Positions 40,893 to 42,669 of a stretch of DNA of 64,000 nt are shown piece by piece (position 1 is the first letter of the stretch; each line of letters begins with the position of its first letter). Position numbers and translations under genes: made by a program. The notes beneath the pieces were generated by a model. That model ran no database searches. It had not been told where the DNA came from and worked only from the letters and a program-made list of their open reading frames with translations. The stretch lies in contig NZ_CAKAKB010000003.1 in NCBI RefSeq assembly GCF_916618755.1, positions 1,116,001-1,180,000 of the forward strand, given 5' to 3'. The DNA comes from Actinotalea sp. Marseille-Q4924. Lineage in GTDB: Bacteria > Actinomycetota > Actinomycetes > Actinomycetales > Cellulomonadaceae.

Positions 40893-40934
40893 ATGACGAA
40901 GGGCGTCACCCCTCGGGGTGACGCCCTTCGTCAT
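40893..40934. terminator. Strong terminator after rpsT
   Basis: A near-perfect stem of about 18 bp (40893-40911 with 40916-40934; ATGACGAAGGGCGTCACC and its complement) with a very short loop. It separates the convergent rpsT and the XRE-TPR regulator and can serve both. Confidence 0.92.
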
Positions 40935-40950: not shown

Positions 40951-42321
40951 TCAGGACGCGGTGCTCGCCCGGCCGCGGCTCTCCCCGCTCCGCGTGCCCT
41001 GGTCCGCCGAGCCGTGCGGCACGACGACGGGGAACGTCGTCGAGCGGATGCCGGCGTCCGCCAGGGCCTGGTCGTACGCGCCGAGCGCACCGGGGAGGTC
41101 CCCGTGCTCGAGCAGCCGGTCCCCGATCGAGCGCCACACGGCTGCCGCCTCGCGCGCCGCCGTCATGAGGCCCAGCATCTGCGCCGCCCACTGGTAGGTC
41201 TCCAGAGCGCGCGGCACGTCGCCCTGCGCGGCGAGGGCATCCCCGAGGAGGATGCGTCCGTTGCACGTGTCGAGCACGGCCTGGTCGTCCAGCAGGGCCA
41301 GACCCGACCGCGCCTCCTCCTCCGCCCGTCGCGCGTCACCCTTCATCAGGTGGGCCCGCCCGACCTCGAAGGCGCACCGGGCCCGCTCCGGCTCCGACCC
41401 CACCAGGGCGAGGGCCTGACCCGCCTGCGCGAGCTGGACGAGCGCGCCCTCGGGGTCGACCGGCTCGCACCGCAGGAGCAGCCAGCCGTAGTGCAGGCGA
41501 AGGCGCGGGAGGTCGCGGCTCACGGCGCCCTCGCTCAGGTAGGCGAGCGCACGCTCGGTGAGACGGCGGGCCTCGACGTAGTCGCCGCGCGCCTCCGCGA
41601 CCAGCGAGGCGTTCCAGTAGATCGAGCCGCGCCCGCGGAGCGTCCCCTTCGCCTCGGCGAGCGAGATGAGCTCGGCCGCGCGGTGGGTGGCGTAGAGCAG
41701 GTCCCCGCGCTCGTAGTACGACCACAGGATGGTCGCGGCGAGCCGCAGGTGCTCGTCCGAGCCCGCGATGCCACCGGCCTCGACCTCACGCAGGACACCC
41801 TCGCCCAGCTCGACGCTGCGGCCGAGGTCGCCCGCCTCGTGGTACGCCGCGACGAGGTCGTTGCCCAGCGCCGCCGCCTCGAGCCAGCGTCGCTCGTCCC
41901 GCGCCCGCGCGAGCAGCGGCTCGAGCACCGCCACGGCCTCGTTGAGCTCGCCGAGCGCCTCGTGCGCCTGGGCGAGCGCGCCCAGGGCGTCCGCGTGGTG
42001 GCGCGGCGCGATCGTGCCCAGGTCCAGCGCCAGGAGCCGCTCCTTGGCCTCCTGCGGTGAGCCGTTGGCCAGTGCCAGACGCGCGAAGCCGATCTCCAGC
42101 CGCGCCCTCTCCTCGCTCGGGGCCTTGTCCCCGTGGCGGAGGAACTCCGCCGTGGTGCCGAGGCGCTGCGCCAGGACCGCCAGGGCGCTGTCGGTCGGGA
42201 CCCGCCGACCGGCCTCGATGAGCGAGATGTAGCTCGGGGAGAAGTCGCCTCCCGCCAGGGACGTCTGGGAGAGCCCGGCCCGGATGCGCTCGGACCGGAG
42301 CCGCTCGGATAGTTCTGTCAC
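40951..42321 (-). CDS. XRE-HTH/TPR regulator (RRNPP-like)
   Basis: A 456-residue cytoplasmic protein. Residues about 4-62 form an XRE helix-turn-helix (RLRSERIRAGLSQTSLAGG, SPSYISLIEAGRRVPT). Residues about 70-430 are a run of TPR-type helical pairs (ALGALAQAHEALGELNEAVAV; ALETYQWAAQM), the layout of Rgg/PlcR/Rap-type peptide sensors. The start GTG (42321) has no ribosome site; TAGAGT lies 8 nt upstream, suggesting leaderless translation. A small exported peptide gene lies 148 bp upstream on the same strand and shares a palindrome with this promoter. Peptide sensing is inferred. Confidence 0.85.
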   Translation of the reverse strand: MTELSERLRSERIRAGLSQTSLAGGDFSPSYISLIEAGRRVPTDSALAVLAQRLGTTAEFLRHGDKAPSEERARLEIGFARLALANGSPQEAKERLLALDLGTIAPRHHADALGALAQAHEALGELNEAVAVLEPLLARARDERRWLEAAALGNDLVAAYHEAGDLGRSVELGEGVLREVEAGGIAGSDEHLRLAATILWSYYERGDLLYATHRAAELISLAEAKGTLRGRGSIYWNASLVAEARGDYVEARRLTERALAYLSEGAVSRDLPRLRLHYGWLLLRCEPVDPEGALVQLAQAGQALALVGSEPERARCAFEVGRAHLMKGDARRAEEEARSGLALLDDQAVLDTCNGRILLGDALAAQGDVPRALETYQWAAQMLGLMTAAREAAAVWRSIGDRLLEHGDLPGALGAYDQALADAGIRSTTFPVVVPHGSADQGTRSGESRGRASTAS

Positions 42322-42326
42322 AGTAG

Positions 42327-42343
42327 GTCACTCTATTCGTGAC
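42327..42343. promoter_or_regulatory. Palindrome GTCAC-N7-GTGAC over the regulator promoter
   Basis: GTCACTCTATTCGTGAC overlaps the likely -10 (TAGAGT on the minus strand) just upstream of the regulator start. The same GTCAY-N7-RTGAC layout recurs at the peptide promoter (42632-42648). A further GTCAC half lies in the start region (42317-42321). Likely operator for autoregulation (inferred). Confidence 0.65.
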
Positions 42344-42469
42344 TCGGGGAGCCCTGCAGGAAGGAAGTGTGCCACGAGCGGGTGAAACTTCATCCATCTC
42401 CTGGCTCGGGGCCGGCCTCGCACCGCGGCGGGCCCGCACGGAGGTCCCGGCATGCCGCCGGGACGGCGG

Positions 42470-42604
42470 TCAGTTCTTGCAGCAGCCCGTGCTGCCGATC
42501 GACATCACGCCGGCCGCAGGGAGGAGCTCCACCGCCGGCGCGACGCCGACGAGGAGCCCCACGCTGACGACGGCGGCCGCGGCTGCGCGCAGGGTCCGCT
42601 TCAT
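42470..42604 (-). CDS. Small exported peptide (44 aa), candidate signalling pheromone
   Basis: ATG (42604) to TGA (42470). KR at positions 2-3, then an Ala/Val/Leu-rich helix (TLRAAAAAVVSVGLLVGVA) ending APA, a signal-peptidase-I-like site near residue 24. The remainder is about 20 residues, ending GVMSIGSTGCCKN with a Cys-Cys pair. GAGGAG precedes the ATG at good spacing and a TTGGCG-N17-CATAGT promoter precedes that. It is directly upstream of the TPR regulator. I recognise no family. Alternatives: a small membrane or Cys-modified peptide unrelated to signalling. Confidence 0.65.
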   Translation of the reverse strand: MKRTLRAAAAAVVSVGLLVGVAPAVELLPAAGVMSIGSTGCCKN

Positions 42605-42631
42605 GACTGGTCTCCTCACGACGGTGTGCCG

Positions 42632-42669
42632 GTCATGCCGACTATGACACGCCGTCCGGCGGACGCCAA
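42632..42669 (-). promoter_or_regulatory. Peptide-gene promoter with palindrome GTCAT-N7-ATGAC
   Basis: Reading on the minus strand: -35 TTGGCG (42669-42664), 17-bp spacer, -10 CATAGT (42646-42641). The palindrome GTCATGCCGACTATGAC (42632-42648) overlaps the -10 and mirrors the one at 42327-42343. Confidence 0.7.

Follow-up and report, generated by a model that had tools for sequence, protein, structure and literature searches.

Whether the regulator encoded next to rpsT in Actinotalea sp. Marseille-Q4924 responds to a small peptide encoded just ahead of it is the question that this locus raises. An earlier note on the 64-kb stretch of DNA analysed here (64,000 nucleotides, hereafter the window) had proposed that the two genes form a self-sensing system. 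On the minus strand, the gene order is holA, a 44-codon open reading frame (ORF) and a 456-codon gene for an XRE-HTH/TPR regulator, which is convergent with rpsT. The features of the locus are as follows.

40951–42321, minus strand: XRE-HTH/TPR regulator, 456 amino acids (ORF list; Pfam HTH_31 and TPR matches; AlphaFold2 pLDDT 90.9)
42327–42343, no strand assigned: putative operator 2, GTCACGAATAGAGTGAC, at the regulator promoter (promoter comparison; 2–5 nt 5' of the regulator start in most loci)
42330–42335, minus strand: –10 element TAGAGT of the regulator promoter (sequence; 8 nt to the GTG)
42470–42604, minus strand: precursor of a Cys-Cys peptide, exported type, 44 amino acids, MKRTLRAAAAAVVSVGLLVGVAPAVELLPAAGVMSIGSTGCCKN (98 of 100 distinct loci in the family keep it next to the regulator)
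42612–42617, minus strand: GAGGAG, ribosome-binding site of the peptide gene (sequence; retained in orthologues)
42632–42648, no strand assigned: putative operator 1, GTCATAGTCGGCATGAC, overlapping the –10 element of the peptide promoter (fixed distance to the peptide start; in 19 of 19 genus genomes)
42641–42646, minus strand: –10 element CATAGT of the peptide promoter (sequence; CAYAGT retained genus-wide)
42664–42669, minus strand: –35-like element TTGGCG of the peptide promoter (sequence; retained in few relatives only)

The building blocks that the earlier note had described were all recovered. The 456-residue regulator starts with GTG. The 44-codon ORF starts with ATG 7 nt after the GAGGAG that had been called a good ribosome site, encodes the C-terminal end GSTGCCKN, and has its stop codon 148 nt 5' of the regulator start; the promoter read as TTGGCG-N17-CATAGT lies ahead of it. 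The ORF list carries a 49-codon form with a GTG start, which is less likely because both the ribosome site and the orthologues back the ATG. When the window was filtered for ORFs of short length with a charged and hydrophobic N-terminus and a terminal CC, this ORF alone passed, with or without a ribosome-site requirement. The regulator is the sole match of its kind in its own genome, and its closest relatives bearing names are mostly from Actinotalea species of the family Cellulomonadaceae. A perfect hairpin (CGAAGGGCGTCACCCCTCGGGGTGACGCCCTTCG, window positions 40898–40931) between the convergent rpsT and regulator genes is probably a two-way terminator.

The earlier note had made its proposal depend on whether orthologous regulators are accompanied by an upstream small ORF that is conserved as a protein, including its C-terminus, and the proposal came through this test well. 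The regulator was present in 100 of 222 Cellulomonadaceae genomes, in 4 of 25 genera. A short ORF of 39–48 amino acids lay upstream on the same strand in 98 of the 100 distinct orthologous loci (the one at L020 identified by eye), with a gap of 64–364 nt. These ORFs usually have a ribosome site, an N-terminal Lys or Arg with a hydrophobic stretch, and a Cys-Cys in the tail, the C-terminal pattern being G-C-C-(K/R). The automatic filter demanded Cys-Cys, so the fact that all 90 distinct peptides have it does not count as independent evidence; a first ORF listing made without that demand yielded the same ORFs. Among these 90 peptides, Gly precedes the Cys-Cys in 88 and Lys or Arg follows it in 86, and the N-terminus that had been likened to a signal peptide carries an AxA-type signal-peptidase motif in 88. 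The precursors contain little besides a signal sequence and a short tail, and no known family was found for the peptide in Pfam or NCBIfam. Differences between the peptide genes numbered 837, 601 and 1736 at codon positions 1, 2 and 3 (142 equal-length pairs), which indicates that the ORF is translated and under selection at the protein level. In a search of 396 genomes of the order with a peptide profile, strong matches (E < 1e-8) occurred solely beside the regulator; weaker ones were mostly partial and resembled signal sequences of larger proteins.

The two Cellulomonadaceae loci without a peptide gene nearby (L128 and L129) encode regulators of 43–46% identity. Their branch is long (0.73 changes per column) and nested within the peptide-paired clade, as if the regulator had drifted once its peptide partner was lost, and this coincidence speaks for a functional circuit. 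Since holA and/or rpsT/lepA neighbour the regulator in all 70 Cellulomonadaceae loci of a set of 79 named loci, linkage of the two genes within the family could be passive. Synteny alone as the cause of the conservation is opposed by the protein-level selection and by the nine distant loci of the set, which lie in other contexts, most with a peptide.

Far relatives keep the pair in altered arrangements. Regulators about 30–44% identical in at least ten other actinomycete families likewise adjoin small exported-type ORFs, with Micromonosporaceae, Nocardioidaceae, Streptomyces and several more represented. The peptides encoded by these distant ORFs measure about 36–61 amino acids, begin with an export-type sequence and carry Cys-Cys at or near the C-terminus, many ending exactly in CC. 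They are mostly divergent from the regulator gene, often with just 52–93 nt from start to start, and otherwise lie downstream of it (sometimes in tandem) or convergent with it. In a class-wide survey, the regulator was found in 58 of 346 genomes and the automatic filter detected a CC peptide at 50 of 69 loci; some of the remaining loci end close by and some come from branches that lack one. As a control, a strict filter applied to the 79 named loci returned 78 ORFs no more than 1 kb from the regulator, compared with one in the 685,660 bp farther off, which rules out a chance ORF. Many Cellulomonas genomes encode a paralogue of the regulator (37–40% identical; loci L130–L137, L139, L275 and L276) followed downstream by one to four tandem Cys-Cys peptides with tails such as SPCCK and QPCCK; the conserved promoter words of this system are different, GTCATTG and GGGACCAT. 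The neighbours of the distant members (ribonucleotide reductase, EamA transporter, CopC/CopD, transposase) showed no common function.

Pfam matches to the regulator comprise HTH_31 (E = 8e-10), HTH_3 (1e-6) and several TPR families; the HTH spans about residues 1–66 and the predicted TPR superhelix about 68–425. The superhelical fold is predicted by an AlphaFold2 model built on 55 sequences (pLDDT 90.9, pTM 0.80). Its top matches among solved structures were eukaryotic LGN TPR domains (Z 26), and its best bacterial matches were RapI (Z 23.3, rmsd 3.4, 269 residues aligned), Rap with the peptide CSF (21.5) and apo NprR (21.4); a viral fold library gave no useful match. As LGN outscores Rap, the similarity is not exclusive to the TPR fold of the RRNPP type, and TPR similarity by itself is no proof of the kind of ligand, since TPR folds bind many things. 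A profile of the regulator also finds PlcR (E 1e-10) across the HTH and first TPRs, both of which are common domains. Residue conservation is concentrated in the DNA recognition helix and a small number of TPR helices (R193–R205, R231–A238 with YWN, R273/R275 and R390–R397), a distribution that would suit a peptide pocket.

Comparison of promoters uncovered a palindrome, GTCA-N9-TGAC, that overlaps the –10 box of both genes. Of 98 loci, 84 have an exact copy 2–5 nt ahead of the regulator start (96 when one mismatch is allowed) and 68 have one 21–42 nt, mostly 29–34 nt, ahead of the peptide start, against a background rate of 0.016 per 150 bp. With one mismatch allowed, TGTCAYAGTN5TGACA marks the peptide promoter in 19 of 19 genus genomes and has two other sites in total. 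The same palindrome lies between the divergent genes of L268–L270, from another family, and operator 1 is absent in a subset of Cellulomonas. Looser and stricter patterns searched in the 19 genus genomes added only non-recurring sites, and many of the 30 GTCAY-N7-RTGAC sites in the Actinotalea genome itself fall within long ORFs by a rough test. From the position of the operators over the –10 boxes, we predict that the regulator very probably binds both promoters and represses both; it probably controls the peptide gene and itself. The regulator mRNA is probably leaderless, because its –10 element sits so near the start codon. As no further shared target emerged, the peptide may be either a signal or a controlled effector.

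We favour a two-gene, self-regulating peptide-receptor circuit that works like the RRNPP pairs of Bacillota, at a probability of roughly 0.6. The pair, its conservation, the exported-peptide design and the shared operator can be read directly from the DNA; from the RRNPP systems we infer that the peptide is exported, processed, imported and bound, and which way the regulation runs. With operators covering the –10 boxes of both promoters, the unliganded TPR regulator would most likely repress the peptide promoter and its own through the GTCA-N9-TGAC sites. The 44-amino-acid precursor would be exported by the Sec route, and signal peptidase together with other proteases would free a short C-terminal Cys-Cys peptide. 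This peptide could be re-imported by an oligopeptide permease (the genome encodes two SBP_bac_5 oligopeptide-binding proteins) and might then bind the concave face of the TPR superhelix, altering DNA binding and leading to self-induction. Of the self-sensing system claimed in the earlier note, the pair, its design and the Rap/NprR-like predicted fold stand, and secretion, re-import and sensing by the regulator enter by analogy. Against the circuit count the restriction of recurrent operators to two promoters, which is odd for signalling with a wider output, the higher score of eukaryotic LGN than Rap within a fold of many ligands, the regulators with no Cys-Cys peptide nearby, and the Cellulomonas subset that lacks operator 1.

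The restriction of recurrent operators to the peptide and regulator promoters speaks for a dedicated repressor of a secreted effector, which is the main rival to a peptide-sensing circuit. Here the regulator would sense thiol or redox state, a metal, envelope stress or a metabolite, and the exported Cys-Cys peptide would be the functional product, for instance one that binds metals or thiols, acts as an antimicrobial or serves the envelope. Adjacent cysteines can indeed bind metals or form disulfides. The regulator itself has no conserved cysteines, however, and the precursors are little more than a signal sequence and a short tail. Moreover, one large family of TPR receptors retains an adjacent short peptide across several gene layouts, as receptor-pheromone pairs do. 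We therefore regard a secreted effector as possible but rather unlikely.

Because the short ORF ahead of the regulator carries two neighbouring Cys codons close to its end, it could also be read as a cysteine-sensing leader peptide, at which ribosome stalling would control the downstream gene. Such an attenuator is most improbable at this locus, since an ORF that is divergent from the regulator gene, convergent with it or downstream of it, as seen in the majority of the other families, could not lead the regulator mRNA. The 5'-leader position of the cysteine-responsive attenuator ORFs of actinobacteria is thereby lost, and gene orientation contradicts this reading. A separate promoter also lies at the start codon of the regulator gene, the gap between the genes varies (64 to 364 nt) and the signal-peptide N-terminus is conserved. 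An XRE regulator next to a small hydrophobic ORF, each with an operator at its promoter, recalls a toxin-antitoxin-like pair in which the regulator silences a toxic peptide; a conserved AxA-type cleavage motif with a terminal Cys-Cys, a large TPR domain, and tandem peptide copies beside one regulator are all unusual for toxins, and leave this a very small chance.

A peptide-receptor circuit can be set beside known systems feature by feature. RRNPP(A) systems combine an N-terminal XRE-type HTH (absent in Rap), a C-terminal RRNPP-type TPR domain in a receptor of 250–500 amino acids, and an adjacent short propeptide gene with an export signal. The 456-residue regulator carries the HTH and, by prediction, the superhelix (with the caveat that LGN scores higher), and the conserved 44-amino-acid ORF has an export signal as judged by the AxA motif. 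PlcR-PapR and NprR-NprX of Bacillus share the XRE-type HTH and TPR architecture, the adjacent gene for a short Sec-type precursor and the C-terminal signal, and both receptors were matched here, PlcR by the profile and NprR by the model. They differ in belonging to another phylum; the Cys-Cys tail and the upstream position of the peptide gene are particular to the present pair. PlcR is an activator, whereas an operator over the –10 box suggests repression. NsdA-family TPR regulators of Streptomyces (NF053720) show weak profile similarity in the TPR region, but the window protein scores 14.4 bits, far below the cut-off of 75, and we know of no Cys-Cys peptide partner for that family. Rap-Phr and AimR-AimP share the superhelical TPR fold and a short exported propeptide beside the receptor, although Rap has no DNA-binding domain. 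The regulator had no relative covering 80% of its length in phage records, and plasmid records gave distant matches (31–36% identity), so that we rejected a mobile-element origin. Rgg-SHP and ComR-ComS of streptococci likewise place a small ORF beside an XRE/TPR regulator, and many relatives of our pair have the divergent layout of rgg-shp. The streptococcal peptides, either hydrophobic or rich in Trp, leave the cell through PptAB or by other routes (PMC12700828), whereas the Cys-Cys tail and AxA-type Sec signal belong to the present system.

Published surveys of RRNPP(A) systems took in Bacillota and viruses (PMC10075063, PMC9765709, PMC12700828). For actinobacteria, a quorum-sensing review deals chiefly with gamma-butyrolactones and other small molecules, and the passages located in it refer to peptides in general terms only (PMC4748050). 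Genome-scale surveys regard cytoplasmic peptide-receptor quorum sensing as typical of Bacillota, and the signals of Actinomycetota as small molecules for the most part, such as gamma-butyrolactones (PMC10075063, PMC12700828, PMC4748050). No account of a TPR regulator partnered by a Cys-Cys peptide turned up in the open-access full-text literature, an absence that is no proof of novelty. The circuit looks like a kind hitherto described only in Bacillota (Firmicutes), here with Cys-Cys peptides. We see an even chance that Cys-Cys pheromones and XRE-TPR receptors form a class of peptide communication across Actinomycetota, with an origin separate from that of the RRNPPA systems of Bacillota or early alongside them; such a class would have been overlooked because the peptide genes span only about 36–60 codons. 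A phylum renowned for its antibiotics would, if this is true, gain a ribosomally made signal through a receptor-peptide pair that occurs in ten or more actinomycete families, and with the peptides and operators now explicit the idea is directly testable.

Several distant loci depart from the common arrangement. Part of a related regulator, 38.5% identical across 60% of the query, is encoded in an unverified record from human faeces named "Bacteriophage sp." (MT836207.1), with no Cys-Cys ORF within the 4 kb examined. A second regulator clade in large genomes of one family (f35; L339–L342 and L346–L348) has no Cys-Cys ORF nearby, and may sense something else or another peptide. Genomes of another family (f38; L290, L294, L295 and L301) have, besides the divergent Cys-Cys ORF, a second one of 53–66 amino acids convergent behind the regulator. 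In Streptomyces goshikiensis, a plasmid encodes a distant relative of the regulator, followed by an annotated hypothetical protein ending in IPLCC (L350, 6505–6720); the pair lies near a P450 gene, sugar genes and the gene for a BTAD (SARP-type) regulator, and possibly controls a biosynthetic cluster.
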